In this document: positions 12,454 through 22,046 of the stretch, piece after piece
Numbering within the stretch: the stretch's first letter is position 1
Layout: the number at the start of each line of letters is the position of its first letter
Assembly: GCA_016842085.1 (NCBI GenBank)
Contig: JAEVEX010000071.1
Span: 1 to 38,548, forward strand
Direction of reading: 5' to 3'
Length of the DNA stretch: 38,548 bases
Source of the DNA: Candidatus Thermoflexus tengchongensis
GTDB lineage: Bacteria; Chloroflexota; Anaerolineae; Thermoflexales; Thermoflexaceae
Notes under the pieces: model-generated
The model's input: only the letters and a program-made list of their open reading frames with translations
What the model was told of the DNA's origin: nothing
The model's database searches: none
Program-made: the position numbers and the translations under genes

Positions 12454-12583
12454 GGCTTCGCTGCAGCGATTCTCACGGGTGAGCGCACCCCCGTTCGAGG
12501 CAGAGTTGTTTCCAAATCCATGGGGTCCAAAAGGGCCTCAGGGGATGGTCAAATCAAATCCCAAGGCAGGAAAGGAGGAGATC

Positions 12584-13951
12584 ATGAAGCAGCTTCGCTA
12601 TGCCGTTCTCGTTCTGGCCCTTCTCCTCAGCGCCTGTGCAGGAGCTACCGCGACTCCCACAGCAGCTCCATCCGCGCCAATGCCCGCCGCACCCACGCCG
12701 ACCGCCCCTTCGGCGACGCCGACCACACCGCCTCGCCCAATCCGTATTGGCCTCTCTGTCCCCCTGACGGGTGATCTCGCGATCGCCGGCACAAAACATC
12801 GAGATGGATATCAGCTTTGTGTGGATCTCATCAATCAGAAAGGCGGTCTGCTCGGACGGCCGGTGGAGTTGCTGGTGGAAGACAACCGCTCCGATAACGA
12901 GGTCACGGTCTCCCAGTATGAGCGGTTCATCAATGTGGAGAAGGTAGATCTGCTACTTGGCACTTTCTCCAGCCGTTTGAACTTTGCAGCCTCCGCTGTA
13001 GCGGAGAAAGCCGGTTATGTTTACCCCATCCCATCCGGCGGCGCGCTTCGGATCTGGGAGCGCGGGTTCAAGTATATTTTCTATTTCCAGCAGAACGCAG
13101 TGGAATACATCGGCAGCGCGCCGCTGCGTGCCCTCATGGCCTACCGGGACAAAGGGATCATCCCGGCAGATGATTTCCCCAAGACCGCCGCGGTGGTCCA
13201 TGCGGATGAGTTTTACGGCAACGCGATCGCCACGGGCCTGCTGGGCGGCAAAGTTCAGATCCCGGGGACGGATAAAGTGATCGATCTGGCACCGGGATTT
13301 CTCGCGCAGGCAGGCATTCAGGTGGTGTTCACCCAGAAATGGCCCGAGGGCTTCACGGACTGGCTGACCCTGGCCAATGCGATTAAAGCCAGCAACCCCG
13401 ATCTGGTCATGGCCGCTTCGGGTTCCCCCGATGATATCATCCAGCTGGTCCGTGCCCTGAAGACCGTGGGCGCCAATCCCAAGATGATCTATACCGCTCA
13501 GGGGACCCAGGTCGAATTTAAGGAGGCGCTGGGTGATGCAGTCAACGGCATCATCATCCATGCCTCCTGGCATCCACTGGCCCCCTATGTGGGGCTGCTG
13601 GCAGGCGAGCCCTTCAGCAATCAGGATTTCATCCAGGCTTTCAAGGCGAAATATGGCCGGGAGCCGGATGAGGATGAGGCTATCCCCTTTGCGGTCTGCC
13701 AGGGCCTTGAGCAGGCTGTCCGGGCTGTGGGCTCGACGGACAACAAAGCGATCCGGGATTGGCTGGCCTCACGAACGAAGGACAACCCGGTGAAGACCAT
13801 TATGGGAGACTTCTACTGGGATGAGCGAGGTTTGCCAATTGGACGCGACTATCTGGTCACCCAATGGCAGAACGGCGAGCTGAAATTTGTCTATCCCATT
13901 GGGGAATTTGAGGGCGTGGTGGATTTGCTGTGGCCACGGCCCAGGTGGTAA
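12584..13951 (+). CDS. Liv-type ABC transporter substrate-binding lipoprotein
   Basis: The extracytoplasmic receptor of a branched-chain amino acid (HAAT) family importer. The signal peptide ends in LLLSAC with the lipidated Cys18. A Thr/Pro/Ala-rich linker follows (about residues 19-50), then the periplasmic-binding fold beginning IRIGLSVPLTGDLAIAGTKH. Conserved parts include YQLCVDLINQKGGLLGRPVELLVEDNRSD. I chose ATG 12584 because AAAGGAGGAG lies 5 bases upstream and the signal peptide starts there. This family also carries amides, aromatic acids and other compounds, so the partner genes suggest the pathway substrate rather than leucine. A 130-base gap separates it from the aldehyde dehydrogenase; no clear promoter was seen in it. 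Confidence 0.9.
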   Translation: MKQLRYAVLVLALLLSACAGATATPTAAPSAPMPAAPTPTAPSATPTTPPRPIRIGLSVPLTGDLAIAGTKHRDGYQLCVDLINQKGGLLGRPVELLVEDNRSDNEVTVSQYERFINVEKVDLLLGTFSSRLNFAASAVAEKAGYVYPIPSGGALRIWERGFKYIFYFQQNAVEYIGSAPLRALMAYRDKGIIPADDFPKTAAVVHADEFYGNAIATGLLGGKVQIPGTDKVIDLAPGFLAQAGIQVVFTQKWPEGFTDWLTLANAIKASNPDLVMAASGSPDDIIQLVRALKTVGANPKMIYTAQGTQVEFKEALGDAVNGIIIHASWHPLAPYVGLLAGEPFSNQDFIQAFKAKYGREPDEDEAIPFAVCQGLEQAVRAVGSTDNKAIRDWLASRTKDNPVKTIMGDFYWDERGLPIGRDYLVTQWQNGELKFVYPIGEFEGVVDLLWPRPRW

Positions 13952-13990
13952 GCGAGGGGGAATTCAGATGGGGCGATCCGGAGGGCGACA

Positions 13991-14725
13991 ATGGCGTTAC
14001 TGGAAGTTCGCGATCTGACCAAGGATTTCGGGGGCCTTCGGGCTGTGAACCGGTGCTCCTTCACCGTCGAACAGGGGAGCATCACGGCGCTGATCGGCCC
14101 GAATGGAGCCGGGAAGACCACCGTGTTCAACCTGATCACGGGGCTGCTTCGGCCGACTTCTGGACGGATCTACTTCCAGGGCCAGGATATCACTGCCATG
14201 CCGCCCCACCGGATCGCCCGGATGGGCATCTCCCGGACGTTCCAGATCACCCGGGAGCTGGCTGAGCTGACCGTCCTGGAGAATGTGGTGGTGCACGCTG
14301 CTCGGGACGGGCTGACCGGGCTTATCCGGGGCAGCATCCTCCAGCACGAGGCAGAGCGGGCCATGGCGCTGCTGGAGTTTGTGGGACTGGCCGCCATGGC
14401 CCGCGAGAAAGCGGGGAAGCTTTCTTACGGGCAGAAGAAATTAATGGAGCTGGCAGGGGCGTTGATGGCCGAGCCTCGACTGATCATGCTGGATGAGCCA
14501 GCTGCTGGAGTCAACCCCGCGTTGCTGGAGGAGATCATGGAACGCATTCTACAGTTAAACCGCTCGGGCATGACCTTCCTGATCATTGAACACAACATGG
14601 ATGTGGTGATGAGCCTCAGCCATCAAGTCGTGGTCATGGCTCATGGGGAAGTGCTCTGCCAGGGAGCGCCGGAGGCCGTCCGGCAGGATCCTCGTGTGCT
14701 CGATGCTTATCTGGGGGCAGCCTGA
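13991..14725 (+). CDS. livG: Liv-type ABC transporter ATPase (LivG-like)
   Basis: The first of two ATPases that drive the importer from the cytoplasmic face. Walker A is GPNGAGKTT (about residues 36-44), the signature is LSYGQKKLMELAGAL, Walker B is LIMLDEPAAGVNP, and the switch histidine lies in LIIEHNMDVVM. The protein has 244 residues, full length. GGAGGG sits 5 bases before the ATG. The stop overlaps the start of the next gene (TGATG), a sign of coupled translation. The name is given by family; the transported compound is unknown. Confidence 0.92.
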   Translation: MALLEVRDLTKDFGGLRAVNRCSFTVEQGSITALIGPNGAGKTTVFNLITGLLRPTSGRIYFQGQDITAMPPHRIARMGISRTFQITRELAELTVLENVVVHAARDGLTGLIRGSILQHEAERAMALLEFVGLAAMAREKAGKLSYGQKKLMELAGALMAEPRLIMLDEPAAGVNPALLEEIMERILQLNRSGMTFLIIEHNMDVVMSLSHQVVVMAHGEVLCQGAPEAVRQDPRVLDAYLGAA

Positions 14726-15468
14726 TGCTGATCCTGGAAATCGAAGAGGTCTCCGCCGGGTATGGAATGGGCCCGGATATTCTGAGCCGGGTCTCCGTCC
14801 GCTTTGAAGCCGGCCTCATTCACTGCCTGATCGGCCCGAATGGAGCAGGCAAATCGACCCTGCTTCGGGTGATCGCCGGCCTGCTTCGCCCCCGCTCAGG
14901 ACGGGTACTTCTGGAAGGGAAGGTGATCTCGGGATTGCGGCCGGACCAGATCCTGGCCCATGGCATCTGCCTGGTACCTCAGGATCGCAGTCTCTTTCCA
15001 GACATGACGGTTCGCGAGAACCTGTTGATGGGTGGCTATATCGAACGGGACCAGCGCCAGGTATCCCGCCGGATGGAAGAGGTGCTGGAGATTTTCCCGG
15101 AAGTCCGTCGGCATCTGAACCACAGGGCCGGGACTCTATCCGGCGGCGAGCAACAGATGGTGGCCATCGCGCGGGGTCTGATGGTCCATCCCCGGGTCAT
15201 GATGCTGGATGAGCCCAGCCTGGGCCTTGCCCCCCTGGTGGTCGATCGGATATTTGAGGCGATCTCCCGATTGAAAACCATGGGGATCACTGTTCTTATC
15301 GTCGAGCAGAATGTGCGTAAAGGCCTGGCCTACGCGGATCGGGGGTATGTGCTGGATATGGGGCGTCTCTCCTTCGAAGGGCCTGCCCGGGAAGTCATGG
15401 AAGATCCTCGACTGCAGGAACTCTATCTGGGGCGGATGGTGCTCTCAAATCGGGAGGTGCAGGGATGA
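14725..15468 (+). CDS. livF: Liv-type ABC transporter ATPase (LivF-like)
   Basis: The second ATPase of the importer, 247 residues. Walker A is GPNGAGKST, the Q-loop region is CLVPQDRSLFPDMTVRENL, the signature is LSGGEQQMVAIARGLM, and Walker B is VMMLDEPSLGLAPL. The 'LFPDMTV' text after the Q-loop is typical of LivF. It overlaps livG by one base at its 5' end and the permease gene by four bases (ATGA) at its 3' end. Intact. Confidence 0.92.
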   Translation: MLILEIEEVSAGYGMGPDILSRVSVRFEAGLIHCLIGPNGAGKSTLLRVIAGLLRPRSGRVLLEGKVISGLRPDQILAHGICLVPQDRSLFPDMTVRENLLMGGYIERDQRQVSRRMEEVLEIFPEVRRHLNHRAGTLSGGEQQMVAIARGLMVHPRVMMLDEPSLGLAPLVVDRIFEAISRLKTMGITVLIVEQNVRKGLAYADRGYVLDMGRLSFEGPAREVMEDPRLQELYLGRMVLSNREVQG

Positions 15469-16337
15469 CCAGCGGGCTTCAAATCCTGATCCTGGGGCTG
15501 GCGCTGGGAGGCGTCTACGCCCTGATGGCCATTGGCCTCTCCCTAACCTATGGCGTGATGAGGATCCTGAACCTGGCGCATGCGGCTTTCATGGTCCTGG
15601 GAGCCTATCTGGCTTACTGGGCACTGCAGATCCTTCATATCGATCCACTGGTATCGATTCTGATCAACGGACCGCTCTTTTTCATCCTCGGGATTGTTCT
15701 CTATCGGATCCTGTTCGTTCCCCTGGCCGGGCGCTCTCGTTATACAGAGGCCACTCTTTTGCTTTCCTTCGGCCTTGCGCTGGGCATCGAGGGCATAATG
15801 GGAGCCATGTGGACCGGGATCTACCGGCTGGCCAACCCCTCTTATGCAACCCGATCTCTTGTATTCGGTTCGTTCTATATCCCGGAGGGCCAGATGTATG
15901 CCACAGCGGCGAGCCTGGGGATCCTCATCGCCCTCTGGGGATTTCTGCAGAAGACGCGGCTCGGCCGTGCGATACGGGCGACGATGCAGAACCGGACCGC
16001 CGCCCAGATTGTCGGCGTCCATGTGGAAAGAATCTCCGCGCTGGCTTTCGGATTGGGGATGGCCTCCGCGGGGGTTTCCGGATCCCTTCTGAGTTTTCTT
16101 TTCCCCTTCTTCCCGGGCAAGCACTGGCAGTGGATCTCCATCCTGCTCTCTCTGGTCGTCCTGGGAGGGATGGGCAGCCTGATCGGGACGGTGGTTGGGG
16201 CGTTGATGCTGGCCGTGGCTTCCGTGTATGTCAGCTCGGCCCTGGGCCCCACATGGTCGCCGGCCACATTTTACGCCGCGCTGTTCCTGGTATTAATGAT
16301 CCGCCCTCAGGGCCTGTTCGGGAAGAGGGAGGTGTGA
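15465..16337 (+). CDS. livH: Liv-type ABC transporter permease (LivH-like)
   Basis: A membrane permease subunit of 290 residues, with the family opening GLALGGVYALMAIGLSLTYG, then VMRILNLAHAAFMVLGAYL and the usual eight or so hydrophobic segments. The cytoplasmic coupling loop (RAIRATMQNRTAAQIVGVHV) is present before the last helices. It pairs with the LivM-like protein encoded immediately after. Its start is fused to the livF stop (ATGA). Confidence 0.92.
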   Translation: MTSGLQILILGLALGGVYALMAIGLSLTYGVMRILNLAHAAFMVLGAYLAYWALQILHIDPLVSILINGPLFFILGIVLYRILFVPLAGRSRYTEATLLLSFGLALGIEGIMGAMWTGIYRLANPSYATRSLVFGSFYIPEGQMYATAASLGILIALWGFLQKTRLGRAIRATMQNRTAAQIVGVHVERISALAFGLGMASAGVSGSLLSFLFPFFPGKHWQWISILLSLVVLGGMGSLIGTVVGALMLAVASVYVSSALGPTWSPATFYAALFLVLMIRPQGLFGKREV

Positions 16338-16338
16338 G

Positions 16339-17340
16339 ATGACGCTGCTGGATCAAATCCGGATCGCAACCCCTCACCGACTGGAGACCCGATCGCTCAT
16401 CCTGCTGAGCCTGGCGCTTGTCCTCTTCCTTCTCCCGCTTCTGCAGGTAGTCTCCGATGGCTACAACTATGTGCTGCACGTCCTGATGGTGATCTTCATG
16501 TATATCGCCATGGCCTCCGGATGGAACATCATCGGTGGCTACGCGGGATACACCTCGCTGGGGCATCCGGTCTTCTTTGCTCTTGGGGCCTATTTCTCGG
16601 GGGTGCTGCTGGTTTATCGAGGATGGTCCCCTTTCTGGACAGCGCCGATCGCCGGGCTGGTGGCCACGCTGTTCGGATTTGCCTTCGGTCTGGTCGCCCT
16701 GCGCACCCGCGGGCCAGCCTTCGTGATCTCAACCATCGCCCTGCTTCTCCTCGCCCAGTTGATCCTGGATAACTGGGAATGGGTGGGGGGGTCCAACGGA
16801 CTGAGCCTTCCGATGATCGGCTGGCCCTATCGGTTCTACAAGATCCCCTTTTACTACGGAATGCTGCTCACCGCTTTGCTTGCGATATGGGTTTCCTATC
16901 GGATCCGGCATTCCAAGCTCGGCCTGTTCCTTCGGGCAATTGCGATGGATGAGACGAAGGCCGAAGTCGCCGGCATCGATACTCGTATGTGTAAGGTGAT
17001 CGCCTTCGCGATCAGTGCTTTCTTCGCCGGCGTTTGCGGTGCGTTGTGGGGTTATCAGCAAACCTATCTGCGCCCCACCATCTTTCTGACCATCGGTGCT
17101 GCCGCAGATCTGGTGCTGATCAACCTGGTGGGAGGGCGCGGGACCGTGGCCGGCCCCGTGCTGGGAGCGGCGTTACGGGTTGGTCTGGATGAGCTGGTGG
17201 TGAACCAGGTTGGCTCGACCGAGCTGAACATCACGGTGACCGGTTTGCTGATGGTCCTGATCGTGCTCTTCTTCCCCGGCGGGATCGTTGGGGCACTGCG
17301 GGAACGCCGACACCTGCCCCGCCTGCTGGACTGGGATTAG
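16339..17340 (+). CDS. livM: Liv-type ABC transporter permease (LivM-like)
   Basis: The second permease subunit, 333 residues. The N-terminus is hydrophilic for about 25 residues, then ten or so membrane segments follow. Conserved parts are IAMASGWNIIGGYAGYTSLGHPVFFALGAY, split over two helices, and the coupling loop LFLRAIAMDETKAEVAGIDT. The start is one base after the livH stop. With the lipoprotein, two ATPases and LivH it completes a five-gene importer. The following gene begins 73 bases downstream. Confidence 0.92.
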   Translation: MTLLDQIRIATPHRLETRSLILLSLALVLFLLPLLQVVSDGYNYVLHVLMVIFMYIAMASGWNIIGGYAGYTSLGHPVFFALGAYFSGVLLVYRGWSPFWTAPIAGLVATLFGFAFGLVALRTRGPAFVISTIALLLLAQLILDNWEWVGGSNGLSLPMIGWPYRFYKIPFYYGMLLTALLAIWVSYRIRHSKLGLFLRAIAMDETKAEVAGIDTRMCKVIAFAISAFFAGVCGALWGYQQTYLRPTIFLTIGAAADLVLINLVGGRGTVAGPVLGAALRVGLDELVVNQVGSTELNITVTGLLMVLIVLFFPGGIVGALRERRHLPRLLDWD

Positions 17341-17413
17341 AAGCCATCATAAAGGTCAAGCGGTCGTCGAATACCCTGGAACACAAGGCTCAGCAGATCC
17401 CCAGGAGGTTCGG

Positions 17414-17899
17414 ATGCTTGTGTGCGAAGTGGAAGCTCGCGTTCTGGAAGGGATGCGCAAGCTGGCGATCGCTCGGATGATCCGTGGGGATCAGGTCTCC
17501 GAAGTATTCACCCTGGTCAGCGATGAGGGAGCCCATCTGAATGGGGAAGGAAGCGCTCCGACCCCTCTGATGTATTTCGTGGCTGGCGTGGCGTTCTGAG
17601 TGCTCACTCAACTCGCGCGGTGCGCGAGGGACCTTAAGGTTCCGCTTGAGGAAGCGCGGGCCAGGGTGGTGGGACGATTCCAGCGAACAGGCTCTGTGCT
17701 TCAGGGCACAGCACGAGGAGAATGTCTGGGGTTCGAAATCATCCTGAGTCTGCGGACCGATGCGGACATCGAGGTGGTGCGCCGGGTTTTGATGCTGGCT
17801 CATGCCACCTGTTATACCGAAAACGCTCTGCGCAGCGAGATCCCTCTCGTTTTGCGGCATGAAGTGAATGGGGTCCCGCTGGAGCTCATGGCTCCGTAG
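17414..17899 (+). CDS. OsmC-family protein, predicted selenoprotein (UGA at codon 62)
   Basis: The frame from ATG 17414 (AGGAGG at 17403-17408) to TAG 17897-17899 is 161 residues with one internal TGA at 17597-17599. Before it the protein reads GEGSAPTPLMYFVAGVAF; after it, VLTQLARCARDLKVPLEEAR. Both are clear OsmC-family sequence, and the TGA replaces precisely the first redox cysteine of the family (usual form PLxYxLAGxxxC). The second redox cysteine is present as Cys133 (AHATCYTENAL). OsmC/Ohr proteins are cytoplasmic thiol peroxidases or related redox enzymes, and OsmC-like selenoproteins are known from bacterial genome surveys. A SECIS-like hairpin follows the TGA. The alternative is a one-base nonsense mutation (TGC or TGT to TGA) or an assembly error. 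Confidence 0.75.
17612..17628 (+). promoter_or_regulatory. Predicted bacterial SECIS hairpin
   Basis: CTCGCGC (17612-17618), loop GGT (17619-17621) and GCGCGAG (17622-17628) form a perfect 7-bp GC-rich stem. The loop begins 19 bases after the UGA, inside the window expected for bacterial SECIS elements, and a G in the first loop positions followed by U is the feature SelB-type recognition uses. A second small dyad overlaps the UGA itself (TGAGT at 17597-17601 with ACTCA at 17606-17610). The hairpin lies within the coding frame, as bacterial SECIS elements do. Confidence 0.65.
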
Positions 17900-18039: not shown

Positions 18040-18465
18040 ATGGGGATCCTGTGGGCTGTGCTATCGGCGATCGGTTTCGCGCTCTTCCAGGTCGTGAACC
18101 GCCGTGCAGGCCTGGGCATCGATGTCCTTCGAGCGACCTTCATGCTCATCCTGATCAGTTCTCTGGCGCTGACCGGGATCGCCTGGGCCGCGGAGGGATC
18201 GGCCCCATTGCAGCAGCTGTCCGCTCCTGCGTTCCTGGCCTTCGCCCTCTCCGGGGTATTCCATTATGTGCTGGGCTGGACCATGCTGGGGCTCAGCCAG
18301 CGAGCTGTGGGCGCGGCCCGAGCAGGGGCCCTGGTGGGGATCAGCCCTTTGTTTGCCACCGCTATCGCATGGATTGTCCTGGGGGAGCATATCTCCTCCA
18401 CCGCTTTGCTGGGAATCGCCTTCATCGTTCTCGGCGTTTACCTTGTTTCCACAGAATCCCGCTGA
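18040..18465 (+). CDS. EamA-type transporter, N-terminal half
   Basis: A membrane protein of 141 residues with about five hydrophobic helices and one EamA (drug/metabolite transporter) domain, from MGILWAVLSAIGFALFQVVNR to LLGIAFIVLGVYLVSTESR. Usual EamA proteins have two such domains in about 300 residues. The other half is encoded 13 bases downstream in a different frame. The two could be a natural heterodimer, as in small DMT pairs, or one gene broken by a frameshift. The start is 140 bases after the OsmC gene. Confidence 0.75.
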   Translation: MGILWAVLSAIGFALFQVVNRRAGLGIDVLRATFMLILISSLALTGIAWAAEGSAPLQQLSAPAFLAFALSGVFHYVLGWTMLGLSQRAVGAARAGALVGISPLFATAIAWIVLGEHISSTALLGIAFIVLGVYLVSTESR

Positions 18466-18478
18466 GGATCTCTTCCAG

Positions 18479-18952
18479 ATGGTCGACCGGATGTCCTCCG
18501 TTCGCTGGTTTTCTATGAAGACCCGTCTGGGCACTGGATGGGGATTGGGGGCAGCTATCTGCTGGGCTATCGATCCCGTGTTCATCCGCTGGGGATTGGC
18601 TCATTTCTCTTCTCCGCTCTGGGGAGCTGCGCTCAGCCTGCTGGCCTGCCTGGGGATCTATGGAGTGCTCGTGGTGCTTCGCCGTCGGTCCGATCGGCTT
18701 CCTCCCGCTTCGATCCTGGGATGGCAAATCGCGGCCGCGATCCTGGTGGCACTGTCCACATGGATCAAATGGCTGGCGCTTCGCGAGGTTCCCGCGGGGA
18801 TTGTGCTGGCCCTGGGGCGGCTCTCCGTCCCTCTCGTGGTCATCCTGTCCCCACTGATCATCGGCCGATCCCTGGAACGCCTGACCCTTCGGCTGGTGAT
18901 CGGAGCCGGCCTGATCACCATCGGCACAATGCTGCTGATCCGCTCGGGGTAG
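18479..18952 (+). CDS. EamA-type transporter, C-terminal half
   Basis: The second EamA-like domain has 157 residues, with text like WGLGAAICWAIDPVFIRWGL at the start, then ALREVPAGIVLALGRLSVPL and a last helix near LVIGAGLITIGTMLLIRSG. Joined to the preceding gene it would make a 10-helix protein of about 298 residues, the family norm. ATG 18479 lies in the short linker. I see no strong ribosome binding site before it, which mildly favours a frameshifted single gene. An export or import role for a pathway metabolite is plausible but not shown. Confidence 0.7.
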   Translation: MVDRMSSVRWFSMKTRLGTGWGLGAAICWAIDPVFIRWGLAHFSSPLWGAALSLLACLGIYGVLVVLRRRSDRLPPASILGWQIAAAILVALSTWIKWLALREVPAGIVLALGRLSVPLVVILSPLIIGRSLERLTLRLVIGAGLITIGTMLLIRSG

Positions 18953-18961
18953 AAGCCTGCT

Positions 18962-19951
18962 ATGGTTGTTGATATCCATGCACACATCCTGGTTGAAGAG
19001 CTGACCCGATCCACTGTTTCAGAGGAAACCTGGCGCCCCCTGGTGGTTCGCGTGGATGGGAAGGAACGCATCGAGATCAACGGGAGGCCGCTGACCTCGG
19101 TGCTGAGGCCCTTCGTGGACCTTGAAGCCATCCTGCAAGCCCAGGAGGCGAAGGGGATCCAGATCACCGTGCTTTCGCCATGGATCGCACTGCTGCGGGA
19201 GGAGGCCGACGCCGAGGAGGCGCTGCGGGTCACTCGCTGTCTCAATGAGGCGCTGGCCCGGCGCGTCCAGCAGTATCCTGATCGCCTTCGTGCTTTCGGG
19301 GCAATTCCTCTGAATGATCCGGAGCAAGCGGCCCGGGAGCTGGAGCTGCTGATGCAGGAGCCCGGGATGGTCGGGGCAGAGATCCCGGCGCGCGTGCGCG
19401 GAGATTTCCTCGGACATGAGCGGTTCGAGCCTCTGTGGGAAGCAGCCGAGGCGCTCGGTGCCTTCATCTTTGTCCATCCCACTGCGCGCAGCGATGCATT
19501 CCCCGGCCTTCAGGACTATTACCTGTGGAATGCCATTGGCAACCCATTCGAGACCACCATCACAGCGGCCCAGATCGTGATGGCCGGCGTTCTGGAGCGC
19601 CACCCTCGCTTGAAGATTCTGCTCGCCCATGGCGGCGGGGCGCTGCTTCATCTGAAAGGCCGGCTCCAGCACGCATGGCACCAGCGCCCGGAGGCCCGTC
19701 AGCGTCTTCAGGAGCCTCCAGAGGCTTCCATACGCCGATTTTATCTGGATACGGTGACTCATGATCCAGATACGCTGCGGATCCTGATCAAGTTCGCTGG
19801 AGCTGATCAGGTCCTCATGGGCTCCGACTATCCCTTCGATATGGGCCTCGAAGAGCCCGTTGAATTCGTTCGAAGCCTGAGCCTTCCGCCGGAGCAGGAA
19901 GCGAAGATCCTGGGAGGAAACGCGGCCCGTCTGTTCGATCTGGAGGGATAA
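18962..19951 (+). CDS. Amidohydrolase family 2 protein (ACMSD-like)
   Basis: A 329-residue metal-dependent TIM-barrel protein of the group containing aminocarboxymuconate semialdehyde decarboxylase and gamma-resorcylate decarboxylase. Metal-binding features are the HxH of His6/His8 (VDIHAHI), His172 (FIFVHPT), His223 (LLAHGGGAL) and Asp289 (MGSDYPFDMG), all conserved. Family enzymes decarboxylate aromatic or muconate-like acids, and some hydrolyse lactones or amides. The context, with a molybdenum hydroxylase and a C-C hydrolase in the same run, suggests a ring-derived acid as substrate (inference). It starts 9 bases after the transporter and ends one base before the cupin. Confidence 0.85.
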   Translation: MVVDIHAHILVEELTRSTVSEETWRPLVVRVDGKERIEINGRPLTSVLRPFVDLEAILQAQEAKGIQITVLSPWIALLREEADAEEALRVTRCLNEALARRVQQYPDRLRAFGAIPLNDPEQAARELELLMQEPGMVGAEIPARVRGDFLGHERFEPLWEAAEALGAFIFVHPTARSDAFPGLQDYYLWNAIGNPFETTITAAQIVMAGVLERHPRLKILLAHGGGALLHLKGRLQHAWHQRPEARQRLQEPPEASIRRFYLDTVTHDPDTLRILIKFAGADQVLMGSDYPFDMGLEEPVEFVRSLSLPPEQEAKILGGNAARLFDLEG

Positions 19952-19952
19952 G

Positions 19953-20327
19953 ATGGCGAAAGTGTTTTCAAAGGAAGAGCTGCCCCACTGGGTTTCCACA
20001 CGGGACACCCGGGACCGCCTGGATCTGATCACCGAGCATGTGCCGGTGGGCGCGAAACGCCTCCGGGCGGATCGGATTCGATATCATCCCGGAGACACTT
20101 CTGCCAGGCATTATCACGTCGATTGCGTCCACCTGTTCTGGGTGCTGGAGGGGCATGGCCTTCTCCATACAGGCACAGACTCCATCCGTCTCTCGCCTGG
20201 CGAGGTGGCCATCATCGGGCCCGGGGAAGTCCACTGGTTTGAAAACGACACAGAGGAAGATTTCGTCTTCATCGAGCTCTGGATCCCCCCTCCGAAAGAG
20301 ACCATCTGGATCACGGATGACCAGTGA
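19953..20327 (+). CDS. Cupin-domain protein
   Basis: A single-domain cupin of 124 residues. The first cupin motif can be seen as HYHVDCVHLFWVLEGHG and the second as GEVAIIGPGEVHWFEND, giving likely metal ligands from HxH, Glu and His. Such small cupins are isomerases, dioxygenases or ligand-binding proteins and cannot be told apart by sequence alone. It follows the amidohydrolase by one base. A hairpin lies just after its stop (20341-20359). Confidence 0.8.
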   Translation: MAKVFSKEELPHWVSTRDTRDRLDLITEHVPVGAKRLRADRIRYHPGDTSARHYHVDCVHLFWVLEGHGLLHTGTDSIRLSPGEVAIIGPGEVHWFENDTEEDFVFIELWIPPPKETIWITDDQ

Positions 20328-20340
20328 ACGTGGGCCTGCA

Positions 20341-20359
20341 GGGCCTGAGGTTCAGGCCC
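20341..20359 (+). terminator. 8-bp GC-rich hairpin after the cupin gene
   Basis: GGGCCTGA and TCAGGCCC pair perfectly around a GGT loop, 13 bases after the cupin stop. No T-run follows (CGCTGGCTTCCTCT), so it is at most a weak or factor-assisted terminator, or an mRNA end-protecting structure inside the operon. It divides the gene run at the 123-base gap before the flavoprotein. Confidence 0.4.
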
Positions 20360-20450
20360 CGCTGGCTTCCTCTGATTCGTCTGTTTGCGCCGCTTGGTTT
20401 CCCCCGCAGGGAGCAGGAGATGGAGGAGCAGCTCTGAAGGGAGGGAGCCC

Positions 20451-22046
20451 ATGGGAGAGATCCTCGAATTCGACGTGGTGGTAGCGGGCGGCGGGCATAA
20501 TGGGCTGGTTTGCGCAGCTTACCTGGCCAAAGCGGGGCTCCGTGTTCTGGTAGTTGAGGGCCAGGAGATCCTGGGCGGTGACACTACCACGGAACCTCTC
20601 ACACTGCCCGGGTTTCGCCATGACCCCTGTGCAACCGCGTTTGAGCTCTTCCAGGGAAGTCCTATCGTTCGTTACGATGAGCTGGGCCTCCGACAGCGCG
20701 GGCTCCGCTTCCTTTATCCTGACCCTGTGGTCACCATGCCTTTTGAGGATGGAACCTCCCTGACCATGTGGCGGGATCGACAGCGCACGATCAGGGAGAT
20801 CGCCCGTTTCTCCCATCATGATGCGGAGGCCTATCAGGAGCTGCTCGCTGAATATGACTCCGTCAGGGAGATCTTCAACGCCCACCGCTACACGCCGATC
20901 GGATACGGGCCCTCGCTGGAGGAACGGCTGGATGCGTTGCCGAACGGGGGCTACTGGAAGCGACGGTATCGCCAGAGTGCCCTGGAGATTATCACTGAAT
21001 ACTTCGAGGATGATCACGTGCGTGCTTTTATGCTCTGGCTGGCCTTCATGACCCTCCAGCCGGTGGATCGGCCTTACACCGGACGTCTGGCCTATGCGCT
21101 GCCCCACGGCCGCCAGACCAACTCATGGACGCTTCCAGCAGGAGGGGCGGGTGTCCTGCCCGGCCTCCTGGCGGAAATCATCCAGGAGAAAGGAGGGGAA
21201 ATCCGAACCGGCCGCTGGGTTGTCGAGCTCCTGATGGAGAACGGGCGATGTGTAGGGGTCCGGACCTCGGACGGCTCGGTTTACCGGGCCCGCCAGGCTG
21301 TGGTCTCCTCCATCCACATCAAGCATCTGGTGGACATGGCCCCACGAGAAGCATGGGGGGAAGCATTTCTGAAGGGCGTGGCGCAATGGCAGGCTGGATG
21401 CACCATGTTCGTCGCCCACTATGCCCTGCGGGAGCCGCCACGATATCCTGTGAACGGGGAGCCTCTTCCGGTGGTCACCGCAGGCATCGCAGGCTCCGCG
21501 GACAACATGCTCCGGTTGATAAGCGATTTCCGTCGAGGCCAGCTGCACCTGGATACTCCCGTCCTTCTGGTCCTCACGCCCTCCGTGGAGGATCCCAGCC
21601 GGGCGCCGCATGGGTATCACACCCTGAAGGTGGTCTCTTTCCTGCCCTATGAGCTGGCTGGCGGCGATCCCTCTCGCTGGGACACGCTCAAGGAAGATGT
21701 AGCCCGCCAGCTGCTGGATTATCTGCGCCGCTTCGCTCCCAACCTCCGGGATGAGGTGATCCTGGCCCATTATGTGGAGAGCCCTCTGGATCTGGAACGG
21801 CGCAACCCTCACAACTGGCATGGGACATGTCACGGCGGGGATATGTCCCCTGCGCAATCCGACGAGCTGCGGCCCGTTCCCGGCTGGGCGACGCACCGCA
21901 TGCCGATCCCCGGGCTCTATCAGACGGGATCGACCACGCACTCGGGTGGCTCAGTGACTGGGGGGCCTGGTCGGAACGCGGCCTGGGTGATTCTGGACGA
22001 CCTGGGCATGCCCGCGGAGGCCATTCTGCGGGCGCCACTCCCTTGA
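20451..22046 (+). CDS. FAD-dependent oxidoreductase, phytoene dehydrogenase-like
   Basis: A 531-residue flavoprotein with the N-terminal dinucleotide motif DVVVAGGGHNGLVCAAYLAK (residues 8-27) ending in VLVVEGQEILGGDTTT, and the C-terminal FAD motif GLYQTGSTTHSGGSVTGGPG. This is the CrtI / 'phytoene dehydrogenase-related' superfamily. Most members outside carotenoid clusters have unknown substrates, and there are no carotenoid genes here, so desaturation or oxidation of a pathway intermediate is more likely than carotenoid synthesis. ATG 20451 was chosen for its GAAGGGAGGG ribosome binding site; an upstream in-frame codon at 20385 adds an unconserved tail. Confidence 0.85.
   Translation: MGEILEFDVVVAGGGHNGLVCAAYLAKAGLRVLVVEGQEILGGDTTTEPLTLPGFRHDPCATAFELFQGSPIVRYDELGLRQRGLRFLYPDPVVTMPFEDGTSLTMWRDRQRTIREIARFSHHDAEAYQELLAEYDSVREIFNAHRYTPIGYGPSLEERLDALPNGGYWKRRYRQSALEIITEYFEDDHVRAFMLWLAFMTLQPVDRPYTGRLAYALPHGRQTNSWTLPAGGAGVLPGLLAEIIQEKGGEIRTGRWVVELLMENGRCVGVRTSDGSVYRARQAVVSSIHIKHLVDMAPREAWGEAFLKGVAQWQAGCTMFVAHYALREPPRYPVNGEPLPVVTAGIAGSADNMLRLISDFRRGQLHLDTPVLLVLTPSVEDPSRAPHGYHTLKVVSFLPYELAGGDPSRWDTLKEDVARQLLDYLRRFAPNLRDEVILAHYVESPLDLERRNPHNWHGTCHGGDMSPAQSDELRPVPGWATHRMPIPGLYQTGSTTHSGGSVTGGPGRNAAWVILDDLGMPAEAILRAPLP

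Follow-up and report, generated by a model that had tools for sequence, protein, structure and literature searches.

In the SECIS element of E. coli fdhF, the apical G-U is contacted by SelB and the stem has a bulged U. OsmC-like selenoproteins and their SECIS elements have been in print since 2005, when a Sargasso Sea metagenome paper listed three OsmC-like sequences and named an OsmC-like SECIS in the legend of its Figure 3 (PMC1088965); the Thermoflexus hairpin described here, which is genuine, is thus of an already described type. The OsmC-like family is listed with a UxxT motif in two reviews (PMC13188914, PMC9312934). The bSECIS model, as given in the first of these, has a loop of 3–9 nt, an upper stem of 4–16 bp, a G at loop position 1 or 2, a distance of 16–37 nt between UGA and loop, and a free energy no higher than -7.5 kcal/mol (PMC13188914). 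A literature search for Thermoflexus with selenocysteine found no paper on Thermoflexus selenoproteins.

The window, i.e. the whole stretch of DNA analyzed, comprises 38,548 nt of Candidatus Thermoflexus tengchongensis. The OsmC-like locus in it displays the following features:

17403–17408, + strand: likely ribosome-binding site AGGAGG, 5 nt upstream of the ATG (direct reading)
17414–17899, + strand: predicted gene for an OsmC-like selenoprotein of 161 residues, Sec at position 62, with a TAG end (translated with TGA as U)
17597–17599, + strand: in-frame UGA, codon 62, predicted to be read as selenocysteine; the same column is UGA in 54 orthologues and Cys in 13 others
17597–17610, + strand: 5-bp dyad TGAGT/ACTCA which holds the UGA; it folds here and is not conserved
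17612–17628, + strand: candidate SECIS hairpin with a 7-bp stem, CTCGCGC (17612–17618) with GCGCGAG (17622–17628), and the loop GGT (17619–17621)

The product of 17414–17899 is assigned to OsmC by Pfam (42.4 bits) and scores 146.1 bits against the NCBIfam family OsmC_like_Se (NF041052), which is above the curated cut-off of 95. The UxxT motif is U62-V-L-T65 and the second Cys is C133. Both U62 and C133 align with Cys residues of the OsmC/Ohr chains PDB 3cje and 3eer, and we take residues 62 and 133 to be the two redox cysteines of the OsmC fold. Membership in OsmC_like_Se is supported by the score over the cut-off, by the UGA at the first redox Cys together with the UxxT motif, and by the selenocysteine machinery of the genome. 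The OsmC protein of ‘Candidatus Thermoflexus japonica HRbin22’ displays 89% identity to the window protein. Directly upstream of the gene on the same strand (12479–17340) is a branched-chain amino acid ABC transporter set, i.e. a binding protein, two ATPases and two permeases; an EamA-like transporter, an amidohydrolase, a cupin and a flavin amine oxidoreductase are found downstream at 18040–22046.

The genome has selA (564.3 bits), selB (301.6 bits), a tRNA-Sec gene, selC (80.8 bits, UCA anticodon), and selD (378.2 bits). The selD gene has its own in-frame TGA (L048 positions 1531–1533, on G000:C90) in a Gly-U-Ala-Ser-Lys context, and SelD itself is therefore a predicted selenoprotein; no clean hairpin is seen directly downstream of the selD UGA in the minimum-energy fold. 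The sequence of this gene alone would also be compatible with a suppressor or an altered code that decodes the OsmC-like UGA as some other residue, e.g. Trp or Cys. However the site is Cys and not Trp in homologues, a canonical tRNA-Sec with the UCA anticodon is present along with selA, selB and selD, and a SECIS hairpin would be needless, which makes such decoding extremely improbable.

Distribution within the genus is patchy. A match to OsmC_like_Se over the cut-off is found in two of nine genomes and a tRNA-Sec match in seven of nine; six congeners have a tRNA-Sec and no OsmC_like_Se match over the cut-off, and this counts against the SECIS reading. Genome G008 of the same genus has the UGA gene (L018), and its draft, about 90% complete, is without a tRNA-Sec match at E<=1e-10, possibly owing to an assembly gap; this, too, counts against the SECIS reading.

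The hairpin was first described in an earlier note as a perfect 7-bp stem with a GGT loop located 19 nt from the UGA, and its coordinates, stem, loop and spacing are all exact on re-reading. The hairpin was also said to conform to the bacterial SECIS rules. This holds for loop and G position (GGU, 3 nt, G first), for the stem (7 bp), for the UGA to loop distance (19 nt) and for energy (-10.7 kcal/mol alone, -12.3 in context). In the MFE structure of 17590–17640 (-17.1 kcal/mol) both dyads form. A rival explanation is that the hairpin arises as a by-product where GC-rich codons encode a conserved peptide and is unrelated to UGA read-through, and the single sequence offers it some support. Given its composition, 17590–17640 does not fold with unusual stability (z -0.44, with 59 of 200 shuffles at least as good), which counts against a SECIS. 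Perfect 7-bp stems that enclose a 3-nt loop occur four times in the window. Among the 1104 TGA triplets on its two strands, 79 are followed by a hairpin that conforms to the rules at -7.5 kcal/mol or below; for 23 of the 1104 the hairpin is at least as stable as the Thermoflexus one, and in seven of these it has a GG/GT apex 17–21 nt away. In view of the shuffle z-score and these background counts, what was observed in the single sequence is correct but no more than mildly unusual. When the amino acids are held fixed and synonymous codons are resampled, however, the hairpin is unusual (z -3.10, p 0.007), and this stands against the by-product explanation.

An Rfam scan of the whole window gave no matches at the gathering threshold. 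A covariance model built from 54 orthologues has its sole convincing match in the genome at the OsmC-like locus (32.2 bits, E 3.8e-6), a match that is by construction, since the sequence of the locus was in the model. Eleven further matches have E-values of 0.012 and worse, and the eight inspected by eye display no UGA followed by a hairpin in an evidently coding frame.

The strong evidence for a SECIS is comparative and is not the fold of a single sequence. Orthologues were collected by family searches of the class, where eight of 396 genomes are over the OsmC_like_Se cut-off and five of the eight matches have TGA, and of the phylum, where 27 of 400 genomes are over it. The Cys site usually has UGA, as 26 of the 27 phylum matches over the cut-off have one TGA. 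A scan of named genomes gave 68 more loci; in the 42 that were read the site is UGA in 30 and Cys in 12. The 90 rows read in total are made up of 48 plus these 42 of the 68 named-genome loci. The reading left out 26 loci with short partial matches (L149–L174) and most of the weak family-search matches. Eighteen rows were dropped for a mismatch to the site motif, i.e. more distant Cys homologues together with L068 and L076, in which the match has a stop close to its end. Removal of five rows with an identical site region left 56 UGA rows and 11 Cys rows. Two of the 56, L038 and L044, belong to a second OsmC group, which gives 54 UGA rows of the OsmC_like_Se family, 48 of them distinct. For the tree and for counts of hairpin presence, L146 and L148 were restored as Cys rows, giving 13. 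The nearest orthologue outside Thermoflexus (L108, 66% identity) keeps the UGA; its source is a metagenome bin labelled Armatimonadetes, which suggests transfer or a mislabelled bin.

In the ungapped alignment of the 54 UGA rows, 84.2% of cells are paired in a 7-pair stem that surrounds the apex. Two-sided changes are found in 64 cells of this stem, compared to 20.6 +/- 3.1 in shuffles, and none of 500 shuffles reached as high. The covariation score is 0.506, against 0.100–0.162 for slid versions of the stem. RNAalifold, run on the UGA rows with no structure given, predicts six of the stem pairs, each with two-sided changes. The position of this stem in the Thermoflexus sequence is as follows:

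17612–17630, + strand: stem in the register of the family, mainly 17613–17619 with 17623–17629, loop 17620–17622

Thus the UGA orthologues preserve, by compensatory changes, a stem around this apex, which is not expected of a by-product of codon composition. The exact register CTCGCGC/GCGCGAG reported in the earlier note is another matter. The hairpin around this apex is conserved, but 17612–17618/17622–17628 was rejected as the structure of the family, since it is paired in 49.7% of cells and shows no clear covariation, whereas a shift by two raises the pairing to 84.2%. The family register is broken by a G-A mismatch in the Thermoflexus sequence and is less stable there (-7.6 kcal/mol, versus -12.3 for the 17612–17618/17622–17628 register, in which this sequence folds best). 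For L108 the family register is the more stable of the two (-13.1 versus -6.2 kcal/mol). G17620 and U17621 stay in the loop under either register. The stem appears to have slipped by two around a fixed apex, and the Thermoflexus register would be a variant of the family stem.

The earlier note described the UGA-containing dyad and the hairpin as two stacked hairpins. Both do fold in Thermoflexus, but the UGA dyad is not conserved among the 48 distinct sequences, where its pair 3–12 is found in 8 of 48 and its pair 4–11 in 2 of 48, with no two-sided changes. It was rejected as part of the SECIS element for this lack of conservation and is probably incidental.

Orthologues with Cys in place of the UGA do not display the stem. 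The same seven pairs are formed in 23.4% of cells of the 11 Cys rows, which is no better than shuffles, and prediction of a consensus structure from these rows found none. In the synonymous test 44 of 56 UGA rows (median z -2.49) and none of 11 Cys rows reach p<=0.05 (Mann-Whitney p 3e-5), with the caveats that the energy window was picked after the hairpin was seen and that the codon sampling models GC3 only. Twelve of the 56 UGA rows fall short in this test, among them L103 (z -0.32), and these count against a SECIS. All 54 Sec rows have a rule-based hairpin and none of the 13 Cys rows does; this count and those above overstate independence because the rows are related. At least six changes of the Sec/Cys state are required on a maximum-likelihood tree, four of them forced by well-supported branches. 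Hairpin presence tracks the Sec/Cys state in four of four supported pairs, although the pairs are too few for significance (tree-corrected sign test, p 0.125).

The hairpin, as a stem around a fixed apex and not as the 17612–17618/17622–17628 register, is therefore kept in UGA orthologues and absent in Cys ones. The Cys orthologues have similar peptides without the stem. This again speaks against the by-product explanation, which is very improbable. The central claim of the earlier note, a SECIS hairpin upheld by codon choice, is supported by the covariation among UGA rows and by the absence in Cys rows. From these sequence comparisons, the hairpin is very probably a bacterial SECIS that lies within the reading frame for an OsmC-like selenoprotein. 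By the comparison with Cys orthologues, the element is selected at the RNA level within a coding region and is gone where the UGA is gone. Orthologues can settle a hairpin of this kind where folding by itself cannot.

The locus might instead be a pseudogene, or a gene that ends at the UGA with a 61-residue product. The TGA does break the frame, and standard gene calling would stop at it and misread the OsmC-like gene as a truncated 61-residue ORF. In comparison to the nearest relative (L107), synonymous codon changes are 12 of 23 downstream of the UGA, which is less than the 15 of 20 upstream. However TGA occupies the identical column in 54 orthologues, the downstream frame runs on to the conserved Cys and the C-terminus, 16 of 29 downstream base changes relative to L107 are at third positions, and the Sec machinery is present in the genome. 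Loss of function or termination at codon 62 is accordingly most unlikely.

For the OsmC-like gene read through as a selenoprotein, known biology provides a probable course of events. The ribosome would reach the UGA at 17597–17599, SelB with GTP and Sec-tRNA-Sec would bind the hairpin via its apical G-U, and selenocysteine would be delivered at position 62, where the OsmC fold has its first redox residue. Sec62 would pair with C133, and the product would act in peroxide or thiol redox chemistry.

A search of the class also gave a second OsmC-like group; of its 16 matches, 15 have TGA at the position equivalent to the Cys:

UGA-containing loci of the second group, from the class search: L044, L193–L204, L206, L207

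A rule-conforming hairpin is present in 15 of the 15 UGA members, 18–20 nt after the UGA, with the loop start at 20 nt in 14 of 15 and a loop that is mostly GGUC. The single Cys member is without that hairpin. Three members tested against NF041052 score 27–36 bits, which is below the cut-off, and the group is thus possibly unnamed as selenoproteins. In their accessible portions, PMC1088965, PMC13188914 and PMC9312934 were not found to contain a second OsmC-like family. A joint reading, for and against which we judge the chances to be even, is that the two separate Sec-OsmC groups of Chloroflexota, NF041052 and the unnamed one that scores below its cut-off, have a single SECIS geometry in common, with a GGU/AGU apex some 20 nt past the UGA, built from different codons. 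The element would be lost wherever Cys replaces Sec, partly by synonymous differences, and the Thermoflexus stem would have slipped two bases with the apex unmoved. If this is true, selection holds the position of the apex and not the exact stem.

Compared to the described systems, the Thermoflexus hairpin has an apical G-U of the same kind as the SECIS of E. coli fdhF, although the bulged U of fdhF is not found in its stem. Relative to the bSECIS consensus, it has nothing outside the model. The protein is like the NF041052 OsmC-like selenoproteins in that Sec replaces the first OsmC Cys and the UxxT motif is present. It differs from them in that this member is from a thermophilic genus of Chloroflexota and has a stem register that is shifted with respect to its relatives.
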